Positions 5,388-47,400 of a stretch of 64,000 bases of DNA are shown here, in pieces. A model generated the notes under the pieces. The model did not search any database and had not been told where the DNA came from. It saw nothing but the letters and a program-made list of their open reading frames with translations. Made by a program: the position numbers and the translations under genes. The number at the start of each line of letters is the position of its first letter. The stretch's first letter is position 1. Source of the DNA: an uncultured Monoglobus sp. (lineage in GTDB: Bacteria; Bacillota; Clostridia; Monoglobales; Monoglobaceae); assembly GCA_947630135.1 (NCBI GenBank), contig CANRGH010000002.1:124001-188000 (forward strand), read 5' to 3'.

Positions 5388-8300
5388 TTATTCAAAATCC
5401 TGATACTCTATCGTCAGGTTATCGAAATAGTACTCCATCTTGTTTGCCGTGTTGCCCTTGTTATCCATGTAAATATTGAAGTACAGATTATCGAGGTTTA
5501 CATCTGTGGGATAATCCGCCGAGCCTGCCGCGGCTATGGTAAACGGCTTTTTGTTCAGTATCTCCATGTCTTTGTCGCGGTCATACAGAGTCGATGTTAT
5601 GCTCTTGTTTTCAAGATCGATCAGCGCCTCGATCGTGTACCATCTGTTTTTCATGGTGTTATTTTTGTCAAACTGAGTGTTGTCGCCGTTTATGCGGGCG
5701 TTGCCCGGTCCGAACAGATTTATCTGTCCCCAGCCCTTCATTACAGCCCAGCGGGCGAAGCGCGTTTGATCGGCAATGTTTTGGCCTTTATTATCCGTGC
5801 TTGTCGCCAGATCGAAATACGACTGGTCGGACGGATAGTAATCGGTCGTCTCCATCAGAAAATCATAGCTGAACTTTATTGTCTTGCTGTTGTTTAAAGT
5901 TCCGTTTCCCAAAAGCTTTTTAAGGTCAAAGCTTACGCCGACGTTATTCTTAACGGTCGCTCCTTCGTTTTTGGTCAGCTTATACACAACGTTGCCCGAG
6001 CCGAGGTTCGCGCTCTCGCTGCCGTTTGCGGTGTAAACGCCCGCGCTGAAACCGCTTGCCGCCGTGATCGTCGGATCCATTCCGGCGAAGTCGGTGCTTG
6101 TCTTTGTAATAGTCTCCATCTTTTTCGCGCTCACGTCAAATGTCTTTGTATCACCCTTGGCTCCCGTGATCTCCGCTTCAAGCGTGTCTATATTATACGC
6201 CGTGTCCGAGATCGAGGCCGTCACGGTGTATGTGCCGACCGGGATATTCTCGGCGGTGTAGCTCGCGGTTGTCTGATTTGCGGGAACGGTGACGTTCACG
6301 GTCTTTATCACCGCGTTGTTTTTCTTGACCCTGATAGTGACGGTCTGCTCATTATCGCTCGCGGGATTAAGCGTGACATTGCCGTTCAATGTGAACACGT
6401 TCTCGGTGTCGCTTGTGGGCTGTATCTTAAAGGATATCGACTTTTTGTCGCCGATCGACTTATCGGCCGCCGTTCTCGCGTAGAGTATCACGGTGGCGTC
6501 TATCGGCTGCTCGCCGTTTGCGGGGCGGATAAGGCTCAGCTTGTTTCCGTTAACCGTCGCGAACTCGCTGTCGCTCTCCCATTTAAACTCGTATCCGCTC
6601 GGCGCGGCGGGGAGGTCGATCTCGCTTTTGGTTCCGTCGCTTGTGTCTATATTCGTTGAGGCAAGAACGCCGTCAACGCCCTCATATTTGCTTTTAACTC
6701 CCGCGGGATCCCAATCATCCGAGCCCTTTGTGAAGGTGTAGGGATTGTATCGGAGCATTGTCCACTCGTCAAGAAGCTGTCCGCGGCGCTTTGAAACGTC
6801 TACAGCCTTACCTGAATCATCAACGCTGCCGTACTCGTAAAATCTTGCTTCCTCGGGCTTATTGCCGCTCATGTCGGTCCAGCCGGAACTTGAGATCAGA
6901 TACGGATCAGAACTTGAGCCTTTGGCCGCGTTTCCGATTTTAGTGTTGATATACGCCGCGGCGGGTCCCGGAGGCGCGCCCCATGGTCTGCCCATATTTC
7001 CGGGCTGAGCCACGCTTGAACCTGTGACATAGCAGTTATAGAACAAATAGCCTTCAGACTCTTTGGTGTTGCTGGGAGCCGTTACAGTGGCGGACTCACC
7101 TTTTCCGCCCGCGTTGACATAAAGCTCGCAGTTATCGAACACGGCTGTCGCGCTGCCGCAGATATAGTCGGTTGTTCCGCCGAGCTTGCAGTTCTTGAAG
7201 TACATTCTGCCGCTGTTGATACCTATCGTGTCCTGGGTCGATATAATCTCGCAGTTTAAGAACACAGCCTTGTCCGCCGAGCAGTGAAGCGCGGCGCATC
7301 GCTCTCTGGGACTGCCGTCAACGCCCTTGTATGTTATATTGTCGCGGGACTGCAAATACGCGTTTATCTCATCATCGCTCTTGCCCGCGGCTTTCTGCTC
7401 GTTTATCCATTCCACCCTGTGGAAATTTCCATTGTTTGTGTCCGGATCAACGCCGGTAATATCGGTGAGTTCTTCCTCGGTATAATATCTGTTGTATGAA
7501 TTTTCCAGTATCAAATTCTCGGCTGTAAATCCTGTCGCGGTCTTGTCGACTTTAAGCGCCGGGCCCCAGTCCTTCGGACCGTAACTCTTGCCGTCGCCTA
7601 TCGCTTGCGGATCATAGTAACCGCTTTCGTTGCAGCTGTCGTAAAGCGAGCCCAGTCCGTAATACCATGTCAAAAGCGCGTCTCCCTCGCTGCCCGCCTT
7701 TTTGCGCAGCGTTATGTACGGAGTTTTTACAACGATCTGCTCGCGATATGTGCCGGGGGCTATGTCAATATATACTCGGTCGGCTTCCGATTTGGGATTC
7801 ATTGCCGCGGCCGCGGCTACCGCCTCGGATATGGTGTTGTATTTCGTCTCGCCTATATAAACTCCCTTAGCCGCGGGGTCCGCGGTCGGAGCCGCTGTGG
7901 GCTTTGCCGTTGGCGCAAGAGTCGGGGCGTTGGTCGGATTTGCCGTAGGAGCAGTTGTGGGCGCGTTGGTCGGAGCCGCTGTGGGCGCCGCTGTAGGAGT
8001 CGAGGCAGGAACATCAGTTCCTACCTCGTATACCGCGCCTTTCGGTTCGATCGTGTCTGTGCCGTCCCAGACATACAGCTTTACTTTTCCGGTTTCGGGC
8101 TTTTTGAAGTCGAGATTTTTAACGTCCGTGCCTTCTATGTCGTATACCGCCGAGTCGAGCATGATCTTTTCGTCGCTCTCGTCGTACACACCGACCATCA
8201 GCTTGGCCTTGGGGCTTGCCTCGGTTCCGTTGTAGCTGAGGCTTACGCCGAGAGTGCCGTCCGCGCCGTAAGAGGCGTTTGTGATCTCATAGTCATAGCT

Positions 8301-11300
8301 TACGGGCGCGGGAGGCGTTGTGGGGTCGGTATCTCCGCTGTATTCGGGATTTAAGTATTTGTAGTCATACACAAAATCACCGATATTGCAGAGATATTTC
8401 TGTCCCTCCTTATAAGGCTCGCCTTTCGCGACAATATATAAATCGTGCTTGCCGGTAATGCCATCAATGTTTTTAAGATCAAGAGCGTACGATCCGGTCT
8501 CAGTCACATTGATCTTGGCGATCTCAACGCCGTCTTTTTTGTCAAGTCTCACCGAAACGGTCGGATTTGCGTCATAGTATCTGCTGATTGCCAAAGACGC
8601 GTTTGTGATACCCGTCAGGTCAACGCCTTTAAAGCAGAAACCGACTTCAACATCCTTTCTGTTGTTTACATATCCAACGGCGTTTCCGTCAACAACTTTC
8701 GGAACCGCTCCGTTATCGCTCGCGAAAAAGCCTGTGGCGGTATTCGCGAATACCGTGTTTGTGCCCTCCAGATACTTGGGTATCTGTTTTTCAAAATGCG
8801 TCACGGTGTATGTCTCGCCCGCCTTGCCCGCGATCGTCGCGATATTTGTGTCGGGATCGAACGCAAATTCCACATTGTTTCCGGCAGAGTCGACAATTGT
8901 TCCCAATCCCAGCTTTTCTTCGCGGATTCTGATGTCGCCGTCTCTGACCGCTTTCAGCGAGAGTTCGGTTATCTCGCCGTTTTGCCATGCCGCGGAGACT
9001 TCCGCGTTTTCGCGGGTCATAAATCCTTCAAACGAACCGTTTTTCCACGATGAAGGTATCGCGGGAATAACATCTATCGCTCCGGTATGGCTCTGCAGCA
9101 CCATTTCGGTTATTCCGGATGTCGCTCCGTAATTTCCGTCGATCTGGAAATCGGGGTGCTCGTCAAAAAGATTGGGAGCTGTGCGGCACAGGAAGAGCTG
9201 TTTGAGCATATTCTCCGTCTTGTCGCCCTGGAGAGCTCTGGCGTTCAAATTCATTCTCCACGCCAAACTCCAGCCTTTGCCGTCCGCGCTGTCCTTGGCG
9301 GTCGTTGAGCCTTGGAACGCTTTAAATATCTTTTGCTCGTTTACGTCGCTGCTGTAGGGATTAATGTGCGTTCCCGGGAACAGTTCCCAAAGGTGCGAGC
9401 AGTGTCTGTGGCCCGCTCCGACGCTGTGCTCCTTAATACTGATCTCTTCTCCCGTAAACGGATTTTTTATGTTCTTGTATTTTTCCGCGGTGGGGTTGTC
9501 GTTTTCGGTGAAATCAAACGTGACGTCGCCGCGCACCCATTCCTGGATACCGCCGTTTCCGACCACATCGGGAGCTATTTTGCCTTTCTCGCTCGCGAAA
9601 TAAGTCGAGGGCATCTGCTCGTCGATCTTCGCCAGCAGATCGGCATTTTCTCCGGTTTTGCCGAGTATTTCGCTCGCCTGCCGAACCATGTCATAGAGGT
9701 TTCTTACAAGCTGGGTGTCCATCGCGGGGCCGGGCTGAACGCCGCCCTGCTCGGGCGAGCAAGACGCGGCGGTGATCAGATAGCCTGTCTTGGGGTCGAC
9801 AACCAGGAACTGCGTGAAGAACTTGGCCGCGCCCACCATGTAGGGATAGACCTCGGCGAGATAAGCCTCGTCCTTGTTAAATTTATAGTACTGCCAAGCG
9901 TGGTCGAGCAGCCATGCTCCGCCCGTGGGCCACAGACCCGCCGTGGCGTTGTCTATCGGCTGAGTGCCGCGCCACAGATCAAAGTTGTGGTGCATTACCC
10001 ACGGGTCGCCGGGCTGATATGTCTCGCAGTTTCCTATTCCGTACTGATAATCGGCGGTAATACTTCCGCTCTGGGCCAGCTCCTTGAACGTGTCAATGAG
10101 AGTCTTTTCACTCTCGCCTATATTAAGAGGCTGAGCCGCCCAGTAGTTCATCTCGGTGTTGATATTTATCGTGTATTTTCCGTTCCAGCCCGCAGTCATG
10201 GCGGCGTTCCACTTTCCGGTCAGATTAAGGGGCTGGCTCTCCTGTATCTCGATATCATCGCCGCTTGCGGCGCGTCCGTCGCGGGCGCCCGAAAGCAGAA
10301 GATATTTGCCGTAATTGAACTCAAGCACCGCCAGTTTGTAATCTCCGTCGTCGTATGTGGTCTTTATGCCGTTGGCTGCCGCCTTTGACGCATTGCTGTC
10401 AGAGCCGGTAAGATAGCCCGAATTTCCTCCTATATCCTTGCGCACTCTCTTCTCGGTGGGAGTGTCAGTGTACTCGTAGCCCTCTTTATTGTCTATTGTC
10501 AGACTTGATTTTGAATACTGCTCCGTAAAATCGGCGAGATGACGCGCTTTTATCTGCTCGTAATTTCTCTTTTGAACATTCGCTGAATATCTGTCGCAGT
10601 CACGTCCGGGCTTTGAGTTGTCAAGATTCAGATAATCAACATAATTCGTGGCGCCCACAACATAAACCGTGGCGCTTTTGCCGCCTTTTACCGAGACGGT
10701 CTTGTTATCCTCGCTTACCGAAAACGCTCCGTCTCCCTCAAGTATCATTCTCGCCTCAAAGGTTATAGCGTTCAGTCTTGAGGGCTGTCCGTTGTTAGAA
10801 TTTCCGTTTCTGACACTTGCGGTCAGTTTAACCTCTTTGTCACTTACCTTTGTATACTTTGCAACATCTTCATGGTATGTATGCAGCTCGGCGCTCATAT
10901 TAAGCTCGCCGTCGGTTTCAACATGGGTCGCCACAGTCTGATCGGGATAGCTTGCAAAGCTCTCGCGCTTATAGTGCTTGCCTCCCAGATCATACTCAAC
11001 CGTCACGATACCGGTTTTCATATCAAGACTCTTGGTGTAGTTCTCCGCGTCCTTGTAGCTCTGACCGAAATCAAGATATACCTCGGCAAAAGACTTATAC
11101 GCTCTCTGACCCGTAGGGGTGCCCAAGAATTTCGCTTCAACCAGACTGTGGAGATTCCACCTGTCCTGAACGGCCGACTGCTCCTTGGCGTTGTTTACGC
11201 CGAGCGCCATATTTGAGATGCTCTTGTTCGCGTAATCGGGGAACTGAGTTCTGAAAGCCTCATCACCCACGATCGCGTCGGCCGAGCCTATCTCGGCGGG

Positions 11301-11879
11301 TGTGCCGTCGGCGTTCGCGCCGCGGAAATATTTCCAGCCGCCGTCATTGCTGCCGCCGGTTTGATTTTGAGTGGTTATTGTCTTGGCGTTTGTCGTTCCG
11401 TCAACGGTCGTAACCTTGTTGCCGTTTTCATCGATCAGTTCTCCGTACGGTGAACCGTCCCAGCAGGTGTCCTCGTTGATCTGAATAACGTCCTTGTCGA
11501 TTCCTCCGGCTACCATTGCCGCCATGCGGCCGTTGCCGATTGGATAGAAGTGGGTCCAGAGATATTCAGAATATGCCCAGCCGGTGAAATACTTGCCTTT
11601 CGCCTCATACGGCTTTTGAATATCGTTTCCGTTTCTGTCCTTCGCATTTGATTTTTTGTCGGCATTTGGGTTGATCTTCGCGGCGTTTTCATAAACGCCG
11701 TCGCGCGCGAGCACTTCGTCGATGGTGGTATCGGTCCACATGGTGGTTTCGGGGTCGAATTTCGCCGCCGCTGTTTCCGCCGCGGCGGAGTCAACGCTTT
11801 CGGTCTCCGCGAAAACCGCGGGAGCCGCCGTCAGAACCATTGCCGCCGACAGAGCGGACGCCAACAATCTTTTTAACAT
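5388..11879 (-). CDS. Secreted multidomain GH95 glycosidase - CE8 pectin methylesterase
   Basis: A 2163-residue exported protein. Residues 1-24 are a signal peptide (MLKRLLASALSAAMVLTAAP). Residues about 45-1040 form a GH95 module (alpha-L-fucosidase / alpha-L-galactosidase family): INTEMNYW near 572 matches the catalytic Asn pair, CSPEQGG near 705 the acid Glu, and FQIDGNYG near 910 the conserved Asp. Then come a CBM-like beta-sandwich (about 1045-1185), a small beta-module, a Thr/Ala/Pro linker (about 1290-1340), and a CE8 pectinesterase with QDTIG (about 1549), DYICGSATAVFDNCE and GRPWG (about 1628). The last 450 residues are Ig-like and concanavalin-like beta domains. It probably removes terminal L-sugars and methyl esters from pectin side chains outside the cell. 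No SLH or sortase signal is visible. The RBS AGGAGGAATTTTT is strong. Confidence 0.9.
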   Translation of the reverse strand: MLKRLLASALSAAMVLTAAPAVFAETESVDSAAAETAAAKFDPETTMWTDTTIDEVLARDGVYENAAKINPNADKKSNAKDRNGNDIQKPYEAKGKYFTGWAYSEYLWTHFYPIGNGRMAAMVAGGIDKDVIQINEDTCWDGSPYGELIDENGNKVTTVDGTTNAKTITTQNQTGGSNDGGWKYFRGANADGTPAEIGSADAIVGDEAFRTQFPDYANKSISNMALGVNNAKEQSAVQDRWNLHSLVEAKFLGTPTGQRAYKSFAEVYLDFGQSYKDAENYTKSLDMKTGIVTVEYDLGGKHYKRESFASYPDQTVATHVETDGELNMSAELHTYHEDVAKYTKVSDKEVKLTASVRNGNSNNGQPSRLNAITFEARMILEGDGAFSVSEDNKTVSVKGGKSATVYVVGATNYVDYLNLDNSKPGRDCDRYSANVQKRNYEQIKARHLADFTEQYSKSSLTIDNKEGYEYTDTPTEKRVRKDIGGNSGYLTGSDSNASKAAANGIKTTYDDGDYKLAVLEFNYGKYLLLSGARDGRAASGDDIEIQESQPLNLTGKWNAAMTAGWNGKYTININTEMNYWAAQPLNIGESEKTLIDTFKELAQSGSITADYQYGIGNCETYQPGDPWVMHHNFDLWRGTQPIDNATAGLWPTGGAWLLDHAWQYYKFNKDEAYLAEVYPYMVGAAKFFTQFLVVDPKTGYLITAASCSPEQGGVQPGPAMDTQLVRNLYDMVRQASEILGKTGENADLLAKIDEQMPSTYFASEKGKIAPDVVGNGGIQEWVRGDVTFDFTENDNPTAEKYKNIKNPFTGEEISIKEHSVGAGHRHCSHLWELFPGTHINPYSSDVNEQKIFKAFQGSTTAKDSADGKGWSLAWRMNLNARALQGDKTENMLKQLFLCRTAPNLFDEHPDFQIDGNYGATSGITEMVLQSHTGAIDVIPAIPSSWKNGSFEGFMTRENAEVSAAWQNGEITELSLKAVRDGDIRIREEKLGLGTIVDSAGNNVEFAFDPDTNIATIAGKAGETYTVTHFEKQIPKYLEGTNTVFANTATGFFASDNGAVPKVVDGNAVGYVNNRKDVEVGFCFKGVDLTGITNASLAISRYYDANPTVSVRLDKKDGVEIAKINVTETGSYALDLKNIDGITGKHDLYIVAKGEPYKEGQKYLCNIGDFVYDYKYLNPEYSGDTDPTTPPAPVSYDYEITNASYGADGTLGVSLSYNGTEASPKAKLMVGVYDESDEKIMLDSAVYDIEGTDVKNLDFKKPETGKVKLYVWDGTDTIEPKGAVYEVGTDVPASTPTAAPTAAPTNAPTTAPTANPTNAPTLAPTAKPTAAPTADPAAKGVYIGETKYNTISEAVAAAAAMNPKSEADRVYIDIAPGTYREQIVVKTPYITLRKKAGSEGDALLTWYYGLGSLYDSCNESGYYDPQAIGDGKSYGPKDWGPALKVDKTATGFTAENLILENSYNRYYTEEELTDITGVDPDTNNGNFHRVEWINEQKAAGKSDDEINAYLQSRDNITYKGVDGSPRERCAALHCSADKAVFLNCEIISTQDTIGINSGRMYFKNCKLGGTTDYICGSATAVFDNCELYVNAGGKGESATVTAPSNTKESEGYLFYNCYVTGSSVAQPGNMGRPWGAPPGPAAAYINTKIGNAAKGSSSDPYLISSSGWTDMSGNKPEEARFYEYGSVDDSGKAVDVSKRRGQLLDEWTMLRYNPYTFTKGSDDWDPAGVKSKYEGVDGVLASTNIDTSDGTKSEIDLPAAPSGYEFKWESDSEFATVNGNKLSLIRPANGEQPIDATVILYARTAADKSIGDKKSISFKIQPTSDTENVFTLNGNVTLNPASDNEQTVTIRVKKNNAVIKTVNVTVPANQTTASYTAENIPVGTYTVTASISDTAYNIDTLEAEITGAKGDTKTFDVSAKKMETITKTSTDFAGMDPTITAASGFSAGVYTANGSESANLGSGNVVYKLTKNEGATVKNNVGVSFDLKKLLGNGTLNNSKTIKFSYDFLMETTDYYPSDQSYFDLATSTDNKGQNIADQTRFARWAVMKGWGQINLFGPGNARINGDNTQFDKNNTMKNRWYTIEALIDLENKSITSTLYDRDKDMEILNKKPFTIAAAGSADYPTDVNLDNLYFNIYMDNKGNTANKMEYYFDNLTIEYQDFE

Positions 11880-12063
11880 AAAAATTCCTCCTAACGTAGT
11901 GATTAGCGAACGTAGTGATTAGTAATTAGTGAATAGCGATTAGAACATCCTTTTTTGCCTTCCCCTTAAGGGGAAGGTGGGTTTTTGCCCGTACGGGCAA
12001 AAAGTCGGATGAGGTGTCAATCATTCGTTTCACAAATCACCGAATTTATTATTTCATGATTTT
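11880..12063 (-). other. Hairpin-bearing 5' leader of the GH95-CE8 gene
   Basis: The region between the inferred promoter and the start codon contains two perfect palindromes, TTTTTGCCCGTACGGGCAAAAA (11982-12003) and CCTTCCCCTTAAGGGGAAGG (11958-11977). Near the start codon are runs of the GTAGTGATTAGCGAA repeat seen elsewhere in the window. These look like inserted intergenic repeats that now form part of the leader. Confidence 0.5.
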
Positions 12064-12069
12064 ATTTTA
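12064..12069 (-). promoter_or_regulatory. -10 element of the GH95-CE8 gene
   Basis: TAAAAT on the minus strand, 23 nt from the nearer MocR box. The second GH95 promoter has the same 23-nt distance. A competing TATAAT lies 7 nt upstream. No good -35 is present, as expected for an activator-dependent promoter. Confidence 0.45.
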
Positions 12070-12092
12070 CATTATAATTTAACATTCAAAAA

Positions 12093-12128
12093 GAGCCAGT
12101 TTGATATTATTTTTATGGGGCCAGATCG
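12093..12128 (-). promoter_or_regulatory. Candidate MocR operator A, upstream of the GH95-CE8 gene
   Basis: Written on the plus strand, GAGCCAGTT and GGGGCCAGATCG form two direct-repeat boxes whose GCCAG cores are 25 bp apart. It aligns without gaps to operator B (15158-15193) with 26 of 36 identical bases, the matches concentrated in the two boxes. The distal box overlaps the last codons of the upstream GH95 gene. MocR-family dimers bind paired direct repeats. Confidence 0.6.
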
Positions 12129-15085
12129 ATTTTGTAGGTTTCTCCGGCTTTGCCGCGAATCTCGGTTATATTCGTTTCGGGATCAAATTTATGTTCCGCC
12201 GCGTTTCCGAACGGGTCAAAAACGCCGACCGCCTTTATTCTTATTCTTATAACGCCGTCTCTTAACGCTTTCACCGAAAGGTCTGTCAGCTTTCCGTCCT
12301 TCCACGCCGCCGAGACCTCGGCGTTTTCGCGGGTCTTAAAGCCGCGGAACTCTCCGCGTTTCCACGTTCTCGGCAGCGCGGGAAGCGGCTCGATCGCGCC
12401 GGTGTGGCTCTGAAGCAGCATTTCGGCTATCCCCGCGGCCGCGCCGAGGTTCCCGTCGATCTGGAAATCGGGGTGCTGATCAAAAAGATTTGGGGCCATG
12501 CGGCACAAAATAATCTGCCTCAGCATGTCCTCGGCCTTTTCGGGGCACAGAGCGCGGGCGTTCAGGTTCATTCTCCACGCGAGACTCCAGCCCTTTCCGT
12601 CAGCGTCGTCCTTGGCGGCGAGGGATTTGCGGAACGCCTCGAACAACCTTTTTTGACCGCCGTCCCGCGGGTTTAAACGCGTTCCGGGGTACAGCTCCCA
12701 AAGGTGCGAGCAGTGGCGGTGGAACGAGCGATTCGACGCGGCGTGGGCCTTTATTTCAAGCGTTTCACCGCTGAACGGGTTTGTTATGTTCGGAAAACAT
12801 TCCTCGGTCTTGTTCGCCGTGTTGCCGAAGTCAAAGCTCACATCGCCCCTCGCCCATTCGGCTATCAAACCGTTTTCGTCGATAATATCGGGCGCGATCT
12901 TTCCTTTCTCGTCCGCGAAATATTCCGAGGGCATCTGCCCGGCGATCTTTCCGAGCAGCTCCGCGTCCTCGTCCGTTCTGCCCAGAACAGCGGCGGCCTT
13001 GTTCACAATGTCATACAGGCCGCGGATAAGCTGGGTGTCCATAGCGGGGCCGGGCTGCACTCCGCCTTGCTCGGGCGAACACGAGGCGGCCGTGATCAGG
13101 TAGCCCGTCTTCGGATCGGCGACGAGGAACTCGGTAAAGAAGCGCGCCGCGCCCGCCATATAAGGATAAAGCTCCGCGAGATATTTTTCGTCTTTATTAT
13201 ATTGATAATACTGCCACGCGTGGTGCAGCAGCCACGCGCCGCCCGTGGGCCACAGTCCCGCGGTCGCGTTGTCGATCGGCTGGGTGCCGCGCCACAGGTC
13301 AAAATTATGATGCGTGACCCACGGATCGCCGGGTCTGTATGTCGTGCTGTCGCCTATCCCGTACTGAAAATCGGCGGTGACGCTGCCGCTTTTCGCGAGA
13401 TCGGCGAGCACGTCGAGCAGCGGCCTCTCGCAGCCGCTCAAATTCATGATCTGCGCCGCCCAGTAGTTCATCTCGGTGTTTATGTTTATCGTGTATTTTC
13501 CGTTCCAGCCCGCGGTCATCGCCGCGTTCCATTTTCCGGTCAGATTGAGCGGCTGGCTTTCGTGAATTTCGAGCCCGCCGTTTTCGGCTTTCCTGCCGGG
13601 CCTTGAGCCCGACAAAATCAGGTATTTCCCGAAATTGAAGATCAGCGCCGCGAGAGCGCGGTCGCCGCCGTCATAGGACGTTGTTATCCCGTTTTCTGCC
13701 GCCGAGCGCAAGTCCGCTCCCGAGCCGGACATAAATCCCGAATTTCCGTCTATGTCGCGGCGCACCCGCTTTTCGGTCGGAATATCCGAGGCCCCGCCGC
13801 CCAGCGTGAGGCTTGACTTTGAAAATTCGGACGTAAAGTCGGCCATATGGCGCGCCCTTATCTCGCCATAACCGCGCTTTTTTATGTTTTCGGAATACCG
13901 GTCGCAGTCGCGCGCGGGCTTTGAATTGTCAAGCGTCATAAAATCGACATAATTCGTTGCGCCGATTATATAAACCGCCGCGCTTTTGCCGCCCTTCGCG
14001 AATATTTTTCTGCCGTCGTCGGACACGGAAAACACGCAGTCTCCCTCGATCAGCATTCTCGCCTCGAACTGTATCATATTGGTTTCGGCGATCCCGCCGT
14101 CTCTGTTTCCGTCGGTCGCGGCGGCGCGCAGCCTTATTTCCCTGTCGCTTATTTTGGCGTAACGGCACTCGGCGCTGTGATAGGTGTGCAGCTCCGCGGA
14201 AAAATTGAGCTCGCCGTCCGTTTCGATACGCGTCACGACCGCCTGATCGGGATAGCTCGCGAAAACCTCTCTTTTATAATGGCGGCCGCCCGCGTCATAT
14301 TCCGTCGTGACAACGCCGGTCTCAAGGTTGAGGCTTTTTATGTAGTTTTCGGCGCTCTCAAAGCTGTGGCCGAAATCAAGATAAAGCTCGACAAAGGATT
14401 TATATGCCCGCTGTTTATATGGCGCGCCGAGAAATTTCGCCTCGACCAGGCCGTGCAGGTTCTGTCTGCCTTGGACCGCGTCGGCGGTTCTTGAGTTGTC
14501 AATGCCGAGCGCAAGGCTCGATATGCTCTTGTCGGCAATCTCCGGAAAGCTTTTTCTGAACTCCTCATCGCCGACAAGCGCGCCTTCCGCGCCTATCTCC
14601 GCCGGGCGTCCGTCCGCGTCCGCTCCGCGGTAATATCTCCAGCCACCCTTAACGCTGCCGCCCGTGAAGCTGCCGTCTCTCACCCTGATTACGCCCTTTG
14701 TCTCACGGGCCTCGCTCATGGTTCTTATAACGTTCCCGCTCTCGTCCTCAAGCGTTCCGTAGGGCGAGCCGTCCCAGCAGGTGTCCTCGTTGATCTGAAC
14801 GACCTCGCGGTCAATTCCGCCCGCAGCCATCGCCGCGAGCCGTCCGCAGCCCACGGGATAAAAGTGCGTCCAGAGAAATTCGGAGTATGACCAGGCGGAA
14901 AACCGTCCGCCCTCGTCAAGATACGGCTTCTGTATCCCGCCGTTTTTGCCTTGAACGTCCTCGGTCTTTGACGCGTTCGGGTCGATCTCGGCGGCGTTTT
15001 TATAAACTCCGCCGCGCTCCAGAACTCTCTCGACGGGCGTGTCGGTCCAGATTACGGTTTCGGGATCAAATCGTGTATTTTTCAT
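12113..15085 (-). CDS. GH95 alpha-L-fucosidase / alpha-L-galactosidase-like enzyme, probably cytosolic
   Basis: A paralogue of the GH95 module of the downstream gene, with no signal peptide and no extra domains. I start it at the ATG at 15085 (MKNTRFDPETVIW, 990 residues), which follows GAGAGGCAG; the upstream ATG in the track overlaps the -10 TATAAT. The same catalytic signatures are present: INTEMNYWAAQ (about 533), SCSPEQGG (about 666) and FQIDGNLG (about 872). GH95 enzymes hydrolyse terminal alpha-1,2-L-fucose or alpha-L-galactose by inversion. The secreted copy could act on polymer and this one on imported oligosaccharides; that division is inferred. It is transcribed divergently from the MocR regulator and shares its operator with the secreted GH95 gene. 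Confidence 0.9.
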   Translation of the reverse strand: MKNTRFDPETVIWTDTPVERVLERGGVYKNAAEIDPNASKTEDVQGKNGGIQKPYLDEGGRFSAWSYSEFLWTHFYPVGCGRLAAMAAGGIDREVVQINEDTCWDGSPYGTLEDESGNVIRTMSEARETKGVIRVRDGSFTGGSVKGGWRYYRGADADGRPAEIGAEGALVGDEEFRKSFPEIADKSISSLALGIDNSRTADAVQGRQNLHGLVEAKFLGAPYKQRAYKSFVELYLDFGHSFESAENYIKSLNLETGVVTTEYDAGGRHYKREVFASYPDQAVVTRIETDGELNFSAELHTYHSAECRYAKISDREIRLRAAATDGNRDGGIAETNMIQFEARMLIEGDCVFSVSDDGRKIFAKGGKSAAVYIIGATNYVDFMTLDNSKPARDCDRYSENIKKRGYGEIRARHMADFTSEFSKSSLTLGGGASDIPTEKRVRRDIDGNSGFMSGSGADLRSAAENGITTSYDGGDRALAALIFNFGKYLILSGSRPGRKAENGGLEIHESQPLNLTGKWNAAMTAGWNGKYTININTEMNYWAAQIMNLSGCERPLLDVLADLAKSGSVTADFQYGIGDSTTYRPGDPWVTHHNFDLWRGTQPIDNATAGLWPTGGAWLLHHAWQYYQYNKDEKYLAELYPYMAGAARFFTEFLVADPKTGYLITAASCSPEQGGVQPGPAMDTQLIRGLYDIVNKAAAVLGRTDEDAELLGKIAGQMPSEYFADEKGKIAPDIIDENGLIAEWARGDVSFDFGNTANKTEECFPNITNPFSGETLEIKAHAASNRSFHRHCSHLWELYPGTRLNPRDGGQKRLFEAFRKSLAAKDDADGKGWSLAWRMNLNARALCPEKAEDMLRQIILCRMAPNLFDQHPDFQIDGNLGAAAGIAEMLLQSHTGAIEPLPALPRTWKRGEFRGFKTRENAEVSAAWKDGKLTDLSVKALRDGVIRIRIKAVGVFDPFGNAAEHKFDPETNITEIRGKAGETYKIDLAP

Positions 15086-15128
15086 AATTTCTGCCTCTCG
15101 GTTTTCTTCAAAATAATTACATATCATA

Positions 15129-15134
15129 ATTATA
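15129..15134 (-). promoter_or_regulatory. -10 element of the second GH95 gene
   Basis: TATAAT on the minus strand, with only a weak TACACC at the -35 position, directly next to the nearer MocR box. This fits an activator-dependent promoter. Confidence 0.55.
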
Positions 15135-15157
15135 CATCCGCGCCGCGGGTCGGTGTA

Positions 15158-15193
15158 GGGCCAGTTGGCACCAAAATGTATGGGGCCAGATCG
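15158..15193. promoter_or_regulatory. Candidate MocR operator B, between the divergent GH95 and mocR genes
   Basis: GGGCCAGTT and GGGGCCAGATCG form two direct-repeat boxes 25 bp apart (core GGGCCAG at 15158 and 15183). The left box abuts the -35 position of the GH95 promoter; the right box ends about 7 bp before the -35 of the regulator's own promoter. One site could therefore activate GH95 and control the regulator. Confidence 0.65.
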
Positions 15194-15200
15194 TTTTTTA

Positions 15201-15229
15201 TTGACTTGAATGAAAGCGAATGATAAAAT
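15201..15229 (+). promoter_or_regulatory. SigA-type promoter of the MocR gene
   Basis: TTGACT - 17 bp - TAAAAT, 33 bp before the ATG at 15262. Confidence 0.8.
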
Positions 15230-15252: not shown

Positions 15253-16638
15253 GTGACTGCAATGAAAGGTTTGAAACACATTCTGAACAAAAACTCCGAC
15301 ACGCCGCTTTACGTTCAGCTCGCCGATCTGCTCACGGAAAACATAATCGCGGGACGGATCGCCGACGGCGAGAAGCTGCCCTCGCGGCGCGGACTTTCGG
15401 AGGAGCTCGGGCTGTCTAAAAACACGGTGGAGCTCGCCTATCAGAGGCTTATCGAGGAGGGCTACGCGGCGGCGCGCTCGCGGAGCGGCTACTTTGCCCG
15501 CCGCACAAGCCCGATAAACACCGACATCTCGGAGCCCGATTTTTACGGCACTCCGGGAATATCATATGTCATGAGCCAGAACGGGACCGACACCGACGCG
15601 GTGCCGGCCGGCGCTATCACCAAGCTGTGCCGCGAGATAAGCTACGATAATCCCGGTCTGTTAAATTACGGCCACAAGTACGGCGAGAGCGAGCTGCGCC
15701 GCGCGATCTCGCACAATCTCTATGATCTGCACGGGATTTCCTGCCCGGCGGGAAGGATCATAATCGGCGCGGGAACCGATTATCTTTTGCAGCAGCTCGT
15801 GAGCGTTATGGGCGACGGCGCGGTTTTCGGGTTTGAGAACCCCTGCTTCGCGCGGAGCTATGTTCCGGTCAAAAACACGGGCGCGAAGACCGAGCTGATC
15901 AACACGCGGATCGACGCTTTTCCGTTGGACGGGCTCAAAAGCAGCGGCGTCACGGTTATGTATGCCTCGCCCGACATGCAGTTCCCCACCGCGCGGAGAA
16001 TGAGCGCGGCGGAGCGGAGCGGCCTGCTTGAGTGGGCGGCCGAAAAGCCCGAAAGATATATAATCGAGGCGGATTTTGACCTTGACTTCGCGGAAAGGCC
16101 CGGACGCACCCTGATCTCGCAGGCGCCCGACAAGGTGATCTTCCTCGGCTCGTTCTACCGCAGCATAGCGCCCGCGTTCAGCGGAGCGTTTGTCGTTCTG
16201 CCCGACGAGCTGAAAAAAAGCTTTGACATGCGGCTGCCGTACTACACCTGCCTTAAATCGAGGCTTGAGCAGCGGGTGATCGCCGAGTATTTAAGAAGCG
16301 GAAAATACCGCAGCCACACCGAAAAGCTGCGGAAATTATACAAAGAAAAACGCCGCCTTTTAAAGACGGCGCTGCTTGAGTCGCCGATAGCCCCGAACAT
16401 TGAGATATACGGAGCCGACAGCGGAACATATTTTATTGTTTCGGTCAGAAACGGCATGAGCGAGGCGGAGCTTAAAAACGCCGCGGCTGCGTGCGGAGTC
16501 AAGCTTATCCCGCTTTCCGCCTGCCTTATAAACACGAGCGAGGCCCTGCCCGAAAACTCGTTCATCGTCGGCTTCGGCCAGCTTACGCCCGAACTGATAC
16601 GCGGCGCGGCCGACGGCCTTATAAAGGCGTGGGGCTAA
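15253..16638 (+). CDS. MocR-type (GntR-aminotransferase) transcription regulator
   Basis: A 461-residue regulator with an N-terminal GntR winged helix (about 15-85: PLYVQLADLLTENIIAGRI, KLPSRRGLSEELGLSKNTVE). The large C-terminal part has the fold of a type-I PLP aminotransferase (about 110-461, with SPDMQFPTARRMS). MocR proteins bind PLP or amino compounds through this domain. I did not identify the PLP lysine with certainty. It starts at GTG 15253 or, more likely, ATG 15262 (458 residues). It is divergent from the second GH95 gene, and the shared two-box operators suggest it controls both GH95 genes and possibly itself. A MocR regulator for plant-glycan enzymes is uncommon; the effector is unknown. 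It overlaps the convergent spoIIR by 4 bp. Confidence 0.92.
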   Translation: MTAMKGLKHILNKNSDTPLYVQLADLLTENIIAGRIADGEKLPSRRGLSEELGLSKNTVELAYQRLIEEGYAAARSRSGYFARRTSPINTDISEPDFYGTPGISYVMSQNGTDTDAVPAGAITKLCREISYDNPGLLNYGHKYGESELRRAISHNLYDLHGISCPAGRIIIGAGTDYLLQQLVSVMGDGAVFGFENPCFARSYVPVKNTGAKTELINTRIDAFPLDGLKSSGVTVMYASPDMQFPTARRMSAAERSGLLEWAAEKPERYIIEADFDLDFAERPGRTLISQAPDKVIFLGSFYRSIAPAFSGAFVVLPDELKKSFDMRLPYYTCLKSRLEQRVIAEYLRSGKYRSHTEKLRKLYKEKRRLLKTALLESPIAPNIEIYGADSGTYFIVSVRNGMSEAELKNAAAACGVKLIPLSACLINTSEALPENSFIVGFGQLTPELIRGAADGLIKAWG

Positions 16639-38408: not shown

Positions 38409-41400
38409 ATGAAGAATTTAATTGTTAAAAACAAGCGTTGGCAGGCTCTTTTTTTGTGCCTTGCCATGATCGCGGCAACGCTTTCGGGCGTTTGCGTGGT
38501 GCCCGTTAACGCTGAACCGACCGACGCGGGAAACGCGGCGAGCATAGGCGGGAACGAGTATCCGACCCTGCAGGCGGCGATTACCGCGGTGGACGGCGCT
38601 GCCGATCAGACTATAACTCTTTTGAAAGACGTATCAGAAAATTTGACATCCGAGGGCAAGAGCTATACTCTGGATATGCAGGGCCACAAGATCACACCGG
38701 CTGACGCGGCAACAACGATTTACACGATCAACGGCGGAACCGTGACGATCAAGAGCACCGGCGAGACCAAAGGAACCCTTACCGGCGCGGAATCGGCGGC
38801 AAACGGCGGAGCGATCAACGCGAGCGGCGGCGCGGTTATAACGCTTGATAATATAGACATAACTCAAAACAGCGCGCCTCAGGGCGGCGGCATATATCTT
38901 GCGGGCTCGACGCTCAGCATGAGCAATACCTACGTCAACGAAAACACCGCGAACGGAAATTTTGAAGATATGGGCGGCGGCGGTGGCGCTGTCGCGGCGG
39001 TTGAGAGCAGTGCTGTGACCTTCAATAAAGGCTGTCAGATCAATAATAATAAAGCGGCCTCCGAAAGCGTGTGCGGAACGGCCCTGTATTTTAACGCGTC
39101 CAAGCTTAATCATGCGAGTGATGGTATGACATACATGGACGAGTTAATTCAGGTGCATGGAAACAGCGCTTTAGAGAGCGGCGAGAATACCGAGTATTCG
39201 GCCGCGCTGTTCGCTTGCAACGAAAGCGATATTGAACCCTTTATGTTGGACATTTCCGAAAATGTCAATAACCACGGCGTTGCCGCGGCATACATATATA
39301 AATCAAAATTTATAGCGATAAACTGTAAGTTTAATTATAATCAATCGGGAAGCAGCACGCTGTATATTCACAGAGACTATAATAATGGAACTAATGTTAA
39401 ATTACAATACTGCGATATCAACAACAACAAGTCCAAAAATCACGGAACCGTATATGTGGAGCGCACTACTGTCACTTTTGATGATTGTTACATCGAAAAA
39501 AACGAGTCTGTGCTCGAAGAAAGTGAATCGGTAAGCGAAACCGATGATTTGATACTTGCTCCCGGCGCTTTGGAGCTTTATTCCGACAATGTGTCATATC
39601 CGGCGGTCGCATACATAGAAGGCGGCACGGTCATAACCGGCAATACCGGCCACAAAGTGGGCGGCATAGGTATTGTGGGGATAGACAATATCAGCGCGTA
39701 CGGTCAATATAGTGCCATATTAATGGATACCAATTCCGCAGTGTACGGCAACACTGCCACATACAAAGCCAAAAGCGGCAACCCGCAGGAATTTGATGCC
39801 AATGATCTGTGGATACCGAAATATACCGCAAAGCTTGATATTCCTGTCGCTTCCGCCATGACGGACGAACTGTATGAAAATAACTTCACCGGATATAAAT
39901 GGTATGATTATTCGGGTATTTCTTTCTCGGAACCTATTTCAAGGGATCAACTTTGGAACGGGAGTTACAACAGCGTGTTAGGCCTTACCGCAGATGTCGC
40001 TGCGGCGCAGGCAAACGACACGGATTACAACAGATTATCAAGAGCTATTGAACACGCGGGAAGCTCGGAAATTAAACTTCTGCGCGATGTCAGCGAAAAT
40101 ATAACGACGAATAACAAGAACTACACCTTGGATATGCAGGGCCACACGATCACGCCGAAAGATCCGAGAACAACGATCTTCACGATAAACGCCGGAACCG
40201 TGACGATAAAGAGTACAAGCGAGACCAAAGGAATTCTCACCGGCGCCAACGCGTCCGCCAACGGTAGTGCGATCTTCGTCGGCGGCGGTGCGAAACTGAC
40301 ACTCGATAACATAAGCATAACCGAAAACAACGCAACAAACGGCGGCAGCGCATCTATGAGCGGAACTCCTATATATGCGGAAGAAAGCGCGCTCGATCTG
40401 AACAAAGTCAATGTTTCAAATAATCAGAGCAAAAGCGGCGTGGGAGCGGTATATATAAATAAGTCTGATTTTACCGCGACCGACTGCGAATTTAAAGATA
40501 ATAAATCGAGCGCAAGCACCGTTTATTTGGTAAAAGGCGGAGGTTACGGCAGCTATTTACCGGCCAAAAAGGCGGTTTTAACAAGATGCGTTATTTCGGG
40601 TAACACATCTAAAAGATACGGAACGGTGTATGCCGACGATAATGATATTAATCTGAATCAATGCCGTATTGAAAATAACACCAATAAGAATGTAAGCACG
40701 GAAGATTTTGCCGCGGGCGCTTTGCAGTTGCACAGCAATGACATGTTTAGCGCGACACACGCGGCGTTAAGTGGAACCGTTATTACAAATAATACCGGAT
40801 ATAGAACCGGAGGTATAGCGGTTGAATACAGAAAGTCAAGTGATTTTTCAGACGCGAAGTATGTGTCTTTGGCATTGGATGACAGCTGCGCGGTATACAA
40901 CAACACAGCCGAATATCTCGATGATCCCAATGATGATTATGTCGGATACGCCAATGATTTGTGGTTGTCGCTGCAAATGGCCGATCTTAGCGTGCTGGAC
41001 GCTTCGACAATGCAGGACAGCGATAATCCCGAAGCGGTATTCAAGGACTTTAAGTGGATAGATAACTTGGGCGGCGCTTATGGAAATTTGGAAAAAGACA
41101 CATTTTCAAATGATAATCCGCGGGTGAAAAAGGTATTTTGTCTGACGGCCGGCATACCGACCCGTGAGGTGGCTGAAATTGACGGAACAACTTATAATAA
41201 CATCGCCGACGCTATTCAGAATCTTGGCGGCGACGATAAGACGATAAAGCTGGTTCAAGGCGAAAATGACGACATGAGTAAGACCGTTGTCGAAAATGTG
41301 CAGATCGAAAAAGACGTGGAGATCGACCTTAACGGACGCAAGCTTATGCCTGTTAATACGGACAGTTACGCGTTTGTAATCAGTTCCGGCACTTTGACAT

Positions 41401-44400
41401 TGAGCAATATGGGAACTACGGAAAGCAAAGTTTATTCAATAAAGAATAGCGGTGTTCTGAATATCGGTTCCGAAGGATCGGCTATAAAGGTGAAGGAGAT
41501 CAGTCAGGAGTCTTCGGGCACGACCAATGTTAACAAAGGCGCGGAGATCGACACTATCAATAATTCGTCCGCCGATGTTAACATAACGGACGGCGCCGTA
41601 GTTAAAAATCTTATCCATAGCGGCTCCGGAAAAATTGGACTTTCGGAAGAGAGCGTTTCCGGCGGAAGAGCCGTTCTTTCGGGAAATGTTACCGTGAATA
41701 ATGTCACATTGGCAAAAGACAGCTATTTAACCGTCGGCAGTAATGATCTTGGTCTTACCGACAACATGAACGTAACGCTTGACGGCGAGGTGCTTGCTCA
41801 GCTTAACAGCGACAGTGAAGAGCCGATTAGCGTGATGTTGATCGATGCAGGCGGAAAGACTGTCAATGATAATATTCTCCGTAAGATCAAGATAAATAAT
41901 GCTAAGTCTAATGTTATTGTCACAATGGATGAAAGTGGCAATGTTATCGCTCAAAAGCTTATTCAAAAAGGTGTATTTGTTGGCGGTAGTGGAGCCAATG
42001 ACGGCAACGATGGAACAACGGCAGACAGTCCGGTTCTGACTTTTGCGAAAGCGTTAGAGAAATTTAAGGCAATAGAAAACAAAACAGCCGATGATAAGAT
42101 TTACGTTTTGGGCACGATCGAAGTAACATCAAGTGACACATGGGATATGGGAGATCTTAAAGATTATCCGATTATGCGCGATCCTATGTTCAAGAGCGGA
42201 CCAATGGTTAAAGTCAGCGGATCGGGCGCGGCTCTTACGCTGTCGAACATAGTTCTTGACGGATACAAAGACCAGCGCGTTGAGGCAGAAGGCCCGATAG
42301 TTGAAGTGACGAACGGAGCTAAGCTTGTAATAAACGACGGCACTGTGCTGAGAAACAATGTAAATAACGACAATTATTATTCATTTGGAGGCGCGGTGTT
42401 TGCCGATAACACCGAGGTTGTAATGAACGGCGGTGAGATAAGCAATAACACAGCTTGGCTCGGCGGCGGCGTTGCGGTCAAAGGAGATAACGGCAAATTT
42501 ACCCTTAAAAACGGCACAATTACCGGAAACAGCACTTCGAAATGGGATAAAATCAATGGCGGCGGCGGAATCGCGATAATAATGGGTGCAAGCGCCTTTA
42601 TGTACGGCGGAACCGTTTCATACAATACCGGCGGACAAGGCGGTGGAATTATAGTCGGAGGTACAACCGCTGATCCCGACACTCAGGAAGGCACTGAACC
42701 CGAGCGTTTTGAAATGCACGGAGGAACTGTGAGCGGCAATATATCCGAGCATAACGGCGGAGGCATCTATGTGCAGGCCACCACCGAGGCGGATATATAT
42801 GAAGGTGCAATCAAAGATAATATTGCGTTGGCAGAAGAGGACTATGCCAGATTTAGCGGCGGCGGCTTTTATGTAAACGGCCAGCGCATGGTGGAAGCAG
42901 GGTCTTTTGAAACCGGAGTATTGCGTTTCCATAACAGCACAGAAATCACAAACAACACCTCGGGATCAAAGACCAATGCTTATATTTGGGGCGGAGGTTA
43001 TGCCGGATGTTCCACGTCGACAGCGTATATTTATACCACTAACGGTACTTCGATTCACGGAAATAAAGCGTGTGAAACTGACGGTACGGAACATGTCAGC
43101 GATTTTTATTCGACAACCGAGCCAATGCCAGGAGTAGGCAGTGATATTATACATACAACTTTGAAATACGATATTTCCGGTTATATGTATGACGGAACTC
43201 CTTATAATTGGACGGACGCGGATAAAAAAGAGAGTGTTGATTATTCCGGTCATATAAAGGCAGGCGGAACGATAAGCTTATACACGGAATCGGCGCCCGC
43301 TGAATCCGCCGAGCCCGCCAAAATAATAATCAGTGGAAACAAGGGCTTAAAATACGGCGGAGGCATAGGAAACAACGGTACGGTTTACTTCGGTACGCCA
43401 GATACTACGGCGGAGATCAAGGGTACCAAAAAGCTGACGGGCCGTGACTGGACCGATGCCGACAGCTTTGAGATCACGCTTGAGGAAGTATCGACCGTCC
43501 ATGAAGGATATGAAGCCGTTCCAGACAAAATCGAAACGAGAAAAGTTGAGGTCAAAAAACCCGGAATGGGTGACACAGCGGCGTTTAACTTCGGATCGAT
43601 CATTTATACCGAGCCTTATTCTCACACTTATAAGGTCAAGGAAACGAGTAAGAGCGAAAACGGAATAACAGTTGACACTTCGGTTTACACCGTTACAATA
43701 ATTGTAACAAAAGACGCCGACGGAAATCTTATCTATGAGCAGCTGACCACCAATGATGAAGGAAAGAATGACATTGAATTTAACAACACATACGAGGCAT
43801 CGGGCTCCTTAACTCTTGAGGCGCAAAAGAACCTCACCGGCAGCAAGCTCGTATACGGCGAGTTTGAATTTGAGGTCAAGGAAGGCGAAGACACAGTAGC
43901 CAAGGGAACAAATGACGCGGACGGAAAAATCGTGTTTGACGAGATCAAATACACCGCCGCGGGCGATCATACCTACACTGTTTCCGAGGTAAACAAGGGA
44001 TTGCCGGGCTATACTTACGATGAAACGAAATACACGGTCAATGTGACCGTGACCGACAAAGGTGATGGAACATTCGACTGCACCAAAACTATCACCAAAG
44101 ACGGCGAGCCGGTTGACGGGATGACCTTTGAAAACAGCTATAATTCGGAAGGCACGGGCTTAATTTCGGGAACAAAGGTTCTTGAGGGCCGCGATATTAA
44201 GGCGAACGAATTCAGCTTTAAGCTGTCGGAAGTGAACAGAGACAGCGACGGAAACGAGACGGCAGAAGAGATAGAGACCGTCAAAAATGACGCGGAGGGA
44301 AAATTCACATTCCCCGAAATCAAATACGCCTTGGAGGATGCGGGAGTCCACACCTACACAGTTGTTGAGGTTATACCCGAGGCGAAAGAGCCGGGAATTA

Positions 44401-47400
44401 CCTATGACACCGACGAGTACACGGTTGTTGTAAATGTCACGGATGACGGAGAAGGAAAACTAACAAGCAAAATAATCTCTATAACCAAAAACGGAGCGAC
44501 AGCGAGCGAGATCAAGTTTACCAATAAATATGGTTCAGCGGGAACGCTCGTGCTTGACGGAACAAAGACGCTTGAGGGCAATAAGCTTTCGGCGGGCGAG
44601 TTCAGCTTTACGCTGACTGACGTGACCGAAGCAGAGCCGAAGGTTCTTGAGACCGTGACAAACGACGCGGACGGAAAATTCACGTTTAGCGGAATTGAGT
44701 ATACGACCGCCGACATAGGAAAACCGCGCAAGTATACTATATCCGAGGTTAAGCCCGAGACGGCGCTGCCCGGAATTTCATACGACAAAGACGTTTACAC
44801 GGTTGAAGTGACCGCCAAGGACAACGGAGAAGGCGGACTGACTTTTGAGAAAAAGATAACTGATAACGGCGCGCCCGCGAATAATATAGCTTTCACAAAT
44901 ATCTATAGGGCGGCCAACACACTTGTTATCAACGGTAAAAAGGTATTGAACGGACGCGCGCTTGATACGGGCGAGTTCGAGTTCACGCTGACCGAGACGA
45001 CCAAGGACAAAGTTGATCCCGTTTCAAAAACAGCGAAAAATCTTGCGGACGGAACCTTCGTGTTTGACGGAATTGCTTATAATCTGGATGACGCGGGAAA
45101 GACGTTCACCTATGAGGTAAAGGAAAATAAGGGATCCGCGGCCGGAGTTGAGTATTCCGAGGAAGTATACAATGTTGAGGTACAAGTTACGGACAACCAC
45201 AATGGAATACTGAACATTGCCGAGACGATAACCAAGAACGGCGAGGCAGCCGACGCGATAGTGTTCACCAACACTTACGCGGCGAGCGGAAGCCTTGAGC
45301 TTAGCGGTGAAAAGAAGATCGACGGCGGAACAGCGGCGGCCGGAGACTTCAGCTTCACGCTGACAGATATAAGCGGAGCCGAGCCGAATGTGCTCGGAAC
45401 GGTTCAAAACGGCGCTGACGGAAAGTTTAAGTTCGACGCGATCAGCTATAGCATTGAGGACGTCGGCAAGGAGCATGTTTATATCGTTTCCGAGGTCAAG
45501 GGCGAGAAGCCGGGCTACACATATTCCGAGGAAGTGTACACGGTCAACGTGATCGTTACCGACAACGGCGACGGAACCCTTAATGTCGAGCCGATAATTA
45601 CCAAGAACGGCGAGATCGCCGAAGATATTGTGTTCACCAACAGCTACGCGGCGAGCGGTAGCCTTGAGCTTGCGGCCCAAAAGACGCTTACCGGAGGAGA
45701 GCTCAGGCACGGCGAGTTTGAGTTCGTTGTTACCGAGGCGGTGGCAAGCGGCGGACAGACCGAGACAAACACAGTCGCGACGGGAACAAATGACGCGGAC
45801 GGAAATATTAAGTTCACTCCCATTGATTATACCGCCGCGGGCAATCACACCTACACTGTTTCGGAGAAAAACACCGAGATGCCGGGATATACATACGACA
45901 GCACGGAGTACACGGTCAATGTGACCGTGACCGACAACGGTGACGGAACTTTGAAGGTTGAGGCGGCAACCGCCAAAGGCGGCGAGCCGGCTGAAAAAAT
46001 GACCTTTGCCAACACTTATACGACGCTGGGAACAGGCTCAATTTCCGGAACAAAGGTCCTCGAGGGCCGCGCTCTTAAGGCGGATGAGTTCAGCTTTAAG
46101 CTGGCGGAGATAATCAGAGACGGCGACGGAACCGAAACGGCCAAGCCTATCGGCGAGCCCGTTAAAAACGGCGCGGATGGAAAATTCACATTCCCCGAAA
46201 TCAATTACGTCTTGGAGGATGTGGGCGTCCACACCTACACGGTCGTTGAGGTTATACCCGAGGCGAAAGAGCCGGGAATTATATATGACACCGACGAGTA
46301 CACGGTTGTCGTAAACGTCACGGATAACGGCGACGGAACGCTGAGCAGCGGCATAACTGCTATATCCGAAAACGGAATTCCGGCGAATAATATCACATTC
46401 ACGAACAAGTATGAGCCGGAAGACACGCTTGTGCTTGAGGGAACAAAGACGCTTTCGGGCGCGAAGCTTTCGGCGGGCGAGTTCAGCTTTACGCTGACCG
46501 ACGCGAGCGAAGCAGAGCCGAAGGTTCTTGAGACCGTGACAAACGACGATAAGGGCGGCTTCGCGTTCAGCGGAATAAAATACACCGCGGACGACATAGG
46601 AAAGACGCATACATACAAGATAGAGGAGGTTAAGCCCGAGACGGCGCTGCCGGGAATAACGTATTCCGAGAATGTCTACACGGTCAAGGTGACGGTTGTG
46701 GACAACGGAAACGGCGGACTGAAATTCACCAAGGATATAACCAAAGACGGAGCGCCTGCGGATAATATAGCCTTCACGAATATCTATAAGGCTGACAACA
46801 CGCTTGTTATCAACGGCAAGAAGGTACTGAATGGACGCGCGCTTGATACAGGCGAATTCAGCTTCACGCTGACCGAGACGACCGAGGGCGTGGAAAATCC
46901 CGTTCCCAAAACAGTGACAAATCATGCAGACGGAACATTCGCGTTTGAGGGAATTGCATATGATCTGGAAGACGTGGGAAAGACGTTTACCTATGAGGTA
47001 AAGGAAAACAAGGGAGACGCGGCCGGAGTTGAGTATTCCGAGGAAGTATACAATGTTGAGGTAAGCGTCACGGACAACCACGACGGAACGCTGGGTATTG
47101 CCGAAACGATAACCGATAAGAACGGCGAGAAGAAGGACGCGATAGTGTTCACCAACACTTACGCGGCGAGCGGAAGCCTTGAACTCAACGGCACGAAGGT
47201 ACTGAACGGCCGCAATTTGACAAATAGCGAGTTCAGCTTCAAACTGTCGGAAGTAGTGATAGGCGAGGGCGGAACCGAGACAGCCAATGAGATCGAGACC
47301 GCAACAAACGACGCGGACGGAAACATCAAGTTCAAGCCGATCAATTACAATTCGGTAGGCGTTCACACCTACACGATAGTCGAGTTGGACGGCGGAGAGC

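Follow-up and report, generated by a model that had tools for sequence, protein, structure and literature searches.

The locus described here raises the question of how two adjacent genes for GH95 glycoside hydrolases are controlled, and what a regulator of MocR architecture would sense beside them. MocR proteins are described as sensors that carry PLP and act on targets related to PLP or to amino compounds (PMC6917764 and the main text of PMC5320631). The window, meaning the whole stretch of 64,000 nucleotides analyzed, is part of a 2.35-Mb genome. We consider it probable that the window holds a local carbohydrate regulon under an activator of MocR architecture.

Paired two-box sites before the GH95 genes

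The following features of the window were considered.

5388..11879, minus strand: GH95a, 2163 amino acids; GH95 and pectinesterase plus a weak match to CBM6 (Pfam)
12064..12069, minus strand: GH95a -10 hexamer TAAAAT, 23 nt from the proximal box
12071-12076: alternative GH95a -10 hexamer TATAAT, 16 nt from the box
12093..12128, no strand assigned: candidate operator 1, before GH95a; GAGCCAG-N18-GGGCCAG; overlaps the 3' end of GH95b
12113..15085, minus strand: GH95b, 990 amino acids; GH95 alone (Pfam PF22124, 383.6 bits)
15129..15134, minus strand: GH95b -10 hexamer TATAAT, 23 nt from the proximal box, without a -35
15158..15193, no strand assigned: candidate operator 2, in the divergent intergenic region of GH95b and the regulator; GGGCCAG-N18-GGGCCAG
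15201..15229, plus strand: TTGACT-17-TAAAAT promoter of the regulator; the nearer box of the operator is 11 nt away
15262..16638, plus strand: regulator of MocR architecture, 458 amino acids; winged helix-turn-helix (wHTH) and aminotransferase-fold domain; Pfam GntR

The regulator gene is divergent from GH95b and has GH95b and spoIIR as its neighbors. GH95a and GH95b are adjacent and about 60% identical, and the N-terminal, catalytic, and C-terminal domains of GH95 were all found by Pfam, which places them in this family; exactly two GH95 catalytic domains were present in the whole genome. Both enzymes are predicted from their family to act on L-fucose or L-galactose glycans. Inspected by eye, the N terminus of GH95a resembled a signal peptide, and no signal peptide was seen at that of GH95b. 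A 4003-amino-acid open reading frame was also present in the window (38409-50420). The leader of GH95a is long (window positions 11880-12060, about 180 nt) and is longer in relatives; it holds repeat-like inserts (ATTAGTGATTAGTGAA and CCTTCCCCTTAAGGGGAAGG) that differ between species, with the promoter kept. No Rfam families were found between window positions 4000 and 20000, so no known riboswitch accounts for this leader.

The sequence-only reading had described two 36-bp sites, one before each GH95 gene, that align without gaps at 26 positions, with boxes 25 bp apart. Both the alignment (26/36 identities) and the box distance were reproduced, and only 1 of 2000 dinucleotide shuffles of the two upstream regions gave a best ungapped 36-mer match with as many as 26 identities. 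The genome search for the two-box pattern that this reading had proposed was run as RRGCCAG-N18-GGGCCAG and returned exactly two mismatch-free matches in 2.35 Mb, one before each of the genome's two GH95 genes. Site 1 overlaps the GH95b stop codon (12113-12115), and the last codons, CTG GCC CCA TAA, make up the distal box. The equivalent of site 1 lies beyond a terminator-like hairpin in four relatives (G011, G004, G005, and G002), so coding constraint does not account for its conservation. The regulator of a further relative (G006) is divergent to GH95a over one site-1-like site, without GH95b, and the two sites of the window are therefore probably old duplicates and not independent inventions. 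The two-site observation is real, and the sites are conserved; in all likelihood they are functional.

Conservation and promoter geometry across the genus and family

The sequence-only reading had staked its idea on the boxes being kept upstream of GH95 orthologues adjacent to the regulator. The idea survived: boxes and 23-nt spacing are conserved in the relatives. Orthologues of the regulator were present in 10 of 11 other genomes of the genus (54-98% identity), most of them divergent from a GH95 gene, and GH95 adjoins almost every orthologue, as well as paralogues with 32-37% identity. The intergenic regions of relatives have diverged almost entirely except for the two boxes, the -10 hexamer, and the spacing. 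As a search motif, the box pattern without the -10 was rejected as unspecific (28 sites in the genus versus 33 for the reversed control), and it became specific when the 23 nt and the -10 were added. This composite pattern (CTGGNNC-N17/18-YTGGNNC-N23-TAWRAT) gave 22 sites in 38 family genomes versus 1 for the reversed control, and all 22 fall in the genus of the window. Nineteen were directly upstream of GH95 genes; of the others, one lay in the intergenic region of the regulator where a G007 contig ends, one, in G009, separated the regulator from an ABC transporter pair with a pectinesterase gene next in line, and one was an orphan promoter in G009 followed by remnant sequence. Sites unlinked to the regulator (G006 contig 56 and G009 2018735) precede GH95-pectinesterase genes, that of G009 at a distance of 136 kb; these unlinked sites independently support the operator as a predictor of GH95. 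The orphan two-box promoter (L221:7806-7865, minus strand; G009:C1:546805-546864) has no intact gene downstream, and the remnant after it (LYIWDGADVIIPLS) resembles the C-terminal tails of the secreted enzymes of this group. A loose-pattern scan of viral contigs gave unspecific matches only.

Both sites had also been placed 23 nt from a GH95 -10 hexamer. This distance was borne out for GH95b; for GH95a, the -10 is ambiguous by itself owing to the second hexamer at 16 nt, and both candidates are kept in relatives. The hexamer at 23 nt is favored, since 23 is the only distance common to all other promoters. Across 12 regions in which a MocR-type gene diverges from a GH95 or pectinesterase-related gene, the gap between the end of the second box and the -10 was exactly 23 nt in 12/12 (two of them, L049 and L182, only with a relaxed second box), and in shuffled sets any one distance was common to at most 2/12. 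These regions include paralogues of 28-38% identity with other boxes (CTGGGTC, TGGTAC, and TTGGCAT). Between the box and the -35 of the regulator's own promoter (TTGAC type), the distance ranges over 11-24 nt, and the constraint thus belongs to the enzyme promoter. The 23-nt architecture was absent at regulators before clpC, thiI, and an aldehyde dehydrogenase gene, and one pdxS-linked region had a match at 22 nt. The recognition helix of the regulators covaries with the box (SKNTV or GKNTV with CTGGNCC; SQ, ST, or AQ with TGGTAC; SP with TTGGCA).

With a spacing of 23 nt, the proximal box covers about -42 to -36, and the distal box -67 to -61. The lack of a -35 noted earlier for the GH95 promoters extends to 17 of the 18 listed, none of which exceeds 4/6 matches at 15-19 nt; the sole promoter with a 5/6 match is in the distant G001. 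The site at 15158 does flank the regulator's own promoter as well, and that promoter does have a -35 (TTGACT). Very probably, judging from these sequences, the regulator switches on the two GH95 genes through the paired conserved site. A regulator dimer would bind the two direct-repeat CTGGNCC-type boxes, 24-25 bp apart, at each GH95 promoter. Because these promoters have a -10 without a -35, the bound protein would stand in for the absent element and recruit RNA polymerase. From this promoter geometry we infer activation rather than repression, the fixed 23-nt spacing being what is expected of an activator in contact with polymerase on the enzyme promoter. The site at 15158, upstream of the regulator's near-consensus promoter, may also mediate autoregulation.

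Three other explanations of the sites were weighed against activation by the regulator. Some MocR proteins repress, among them EnuR (PMC8739950) and GabR on its own gene (PMC6917764), and the regulator might likewise repress the GH95 genes and itself until released by a ligand, as EnuR does. This is rather improbable, as the boxes lie upstream of the -10 and not over it, the GH95 promoters offer no usable -35, and it is the GH95 -10 spacing that is fixed to the base while the spacing to the regulator promoter is free. That a DNA-binding protein other than the regulator uses the sites is highly improbable, given that the sites always accompany the regulator's genes and lie in its divergent promoter, that direct repeats with a CTGG core are typical of MocR operators in the main text of PMC5320631, and that recognition helix and box covary. 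Finally, the likeness of the sites could be a functionless remnant of GH95 duplication, in keeping with the identity and adjacency of GH95a and GH95b and with the single GH95 gene and site-1-like site at the G006 locus. The conservation of boxes and 23-nt spacing across species and at unlinked genes, in flanks and leaders that have otherwise diverged, makes such a remnant very unlikely, and the composite pattern finds almost only these sites genome-wide; we give this explanation scarcely any weight.

Fold of the regulator and loss of PLP anchors

The regulator has MocR/GabR architecture, with an N-terminal GntR-type wHTH fused to an aminotransferase fold type I domain. Its AlphaFold model (mean pLDDT, 88) matched GabR and PdxR best among PDB structures, and its score against the NCBIfam PdxR model NF052282 (341.7 bits) passed the equivalog cutoff of 320. 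The sites have the form of MocR-type operators, with a pair of direct-repeat boxes, separated by roughly two to three helix turns, close to the regulator gene. The residues that hold PLP in GabR are changed: the Schiff-base lysine K312 is R300, the pyridine-nitrogen aspartate D279 is A270, and the phosphate arginine R319 is S307. R300 was invariant in nine aligned GH95- or pectin-linked members. Compared to the nine GabR ligand-site residues listed in PMC6917764, the regulator keeps F250 and R207, has other aromatics for Y205 and Y281, and has lost H114 (Q), D279 (A), K312 (R), R319 (S), and R430 (A). Among 76 other sampled GTDB MocR relatives, the three anchors read D/K/R in 72 and D/R/R in 4. 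This loss was overlooked by the sequence-only reading, and it changes the effector question. D279 and K312 are described as conserved in all MocR clusters (PMC6677901), and since the regulator lacks them it should, on its residues, not be filed as a PLP-dependent MocR; covalent PLP would be excluded only insofar as the lysine is absent.

Despite passing the PdxR model cutoff, the regulator should not be classed as PdxR by function either. It is not linked to PLP synthesis genes, and pdxS adjoins another paralogue (L199:8346-9821; L041:13861-15234), presumably the real PdxR of the genus, which lies about 3 kb from the regulator in some relatives. That paralogue has arginine for the PLP lysine and keeps the aspartate and arginine anchors, so a change to arginine by itself need not put an end to PLP sensing. 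Nearly all MocR paralogues of this bacterial family are without the lysine, and the residue in its place is R in GH95-linked members; N, T, and L in pectinesterase-linked members; H and Y beside clpC; and R beside pdxS. The pectinesterase-linked members (L187, L191, and L195, with N, T, and L) diverge from genes for large pectinesterases and share the 23-nt geometry. Three others (L083, L193, and L196), divergent to genes for clpC-like AAA ATPases, have H or Y at the lysine and V or T at the aspartate, and this arrangement is conserved. The lysine-bearing exceptions are L089, L090, L180, and L181. Two of these are close relatives, L089 (flanked by GH95) and L090 (not next to GH95), and the lysine in them makes it likely that an ancestor bound PLP or that some members use it. 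L089 (5347-6717) has GH95 genes on both sides and a conserved operator; its regulator has three in-frame stops and one GH95 gene is frameshifted, which we attribute to decay or assembly errors. On a tree with long branches, which gives no direction, the lysine state requires at least six changes, with two lysine pairs nested among non-lysine rows.

These observations bear on whether the regulator could be an ordinary PLP-dependent MocR with new targets, holding PLP noncovalently and sensing PLP or an amino compound such as an amino sugar. PdxR is its closest NCBIfam model, the pdxS-linked paralogue has undergone the same lysine-to-arginine change, and L090 keeps the lysine. In the clade of the window, however, the aspartate and the phosphate arginine have changed besides the lysine, and in EnuR the substitution K302H abolishes PLP binding and yields a constitutive repressor (PMC8739950). 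We regard PLP dependence as unlikely, if the most serious of the alternatives.

For the activator, then, the signal is likely a breakdown product of pectin or of another glycan bearing fucose or L-galactose, given the pairing of a secreted GH95-pectinesterase with a GH95 enzyme that has no signal peptide. The PLP Schiff-base site has been dismantled in the clade (D279A, K312R, and R319S in GabR terms), and F196, F241, F272, and R198 remain; with the anchors gone and these aromatics and R198 left, ligand sensing by the domain is probably independent of covalent PLP. A further and more tentative proposal is that the clade is a natural PLP-free branch of the MocR fold, in which the old aminotransferase pocket (F196/F241/F272 and R198/R300) senses a sugar-type ligand and activates genes for secreted GH95 enzymes and pectinesterases, the same change in several Monoglobaceae-like paralogues marking a lineage-wide conversion to carbohydrate control. 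This is quite possible, and we hold it with less than even confidence. A vitamin B6-type sensor seems to have been retooled for carbohydrate breakdown.

Novelty and relation to known MocR systems

Control of L-fucosidase/galactosidase genes had been put forward as a new type of MocR regulon, and the literature supports this. The regulons in the main text of the MocR survey PMC5320631 concern PLP, GABA, taurine, ectoine, transporter, and redox functions, and no glycoside hydrolase targets are named in that text; nothing relevant on MocR with glycoside hydrolases or pectin was found in open-licence literature. The regulon type is new relative to that literature; more surprising still is that the PLP anchors are gone. 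If true, a lysine-less clade in control of pectin-related enzymes would mean that the MocR fold can leave PLP behind, and it would offer a direct test of MocR signaling without an aldimine. The regulator is also a candidate for local control of fiber breakdown in Monoglobus-type gut bacteria.

Among characterized systems, GabR of Bacillus subtilis shares the wHTH and aminotransferase fold (model matches to 4mgr and 4n0b, E about 1e-39), and it is an activator of a neighboring gene set and an autorepressor acting at direct repeats, as would apply here if the regulator activates. GabR differs in needing PLP and GABA through K312; its K312, D279, R319, and R430 correspond to R300, A270, S307, and A420, and the predicted targets of the regulator are glycoside hydrolases. 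PdxR of Bacillus clausii (7pq9 and 7zpa; NF052282) is the best sequence family and the best PDB sequence match, whereas the regulator is not beside pdxST, has lost the PLP anchors, and has a same-genome paralogue (L199) beside pdxS. The operators of TauR and other MocR proteins in the main text of PMC5320631 likewise consist of direct repeats with a CTGGACY-like box, but these systems have amino-compound targets and PLP-dependent proteins. EnuR K302H (PMC8739950) is, like the regulator, a MocR protein without the PLP lysine, and it stays dimeric and still represses. It is a laboratory mutant locked as a repressor, whereas the loss in the regulator is natural and conserved and, if signaling is kept, implies another way of sensing.
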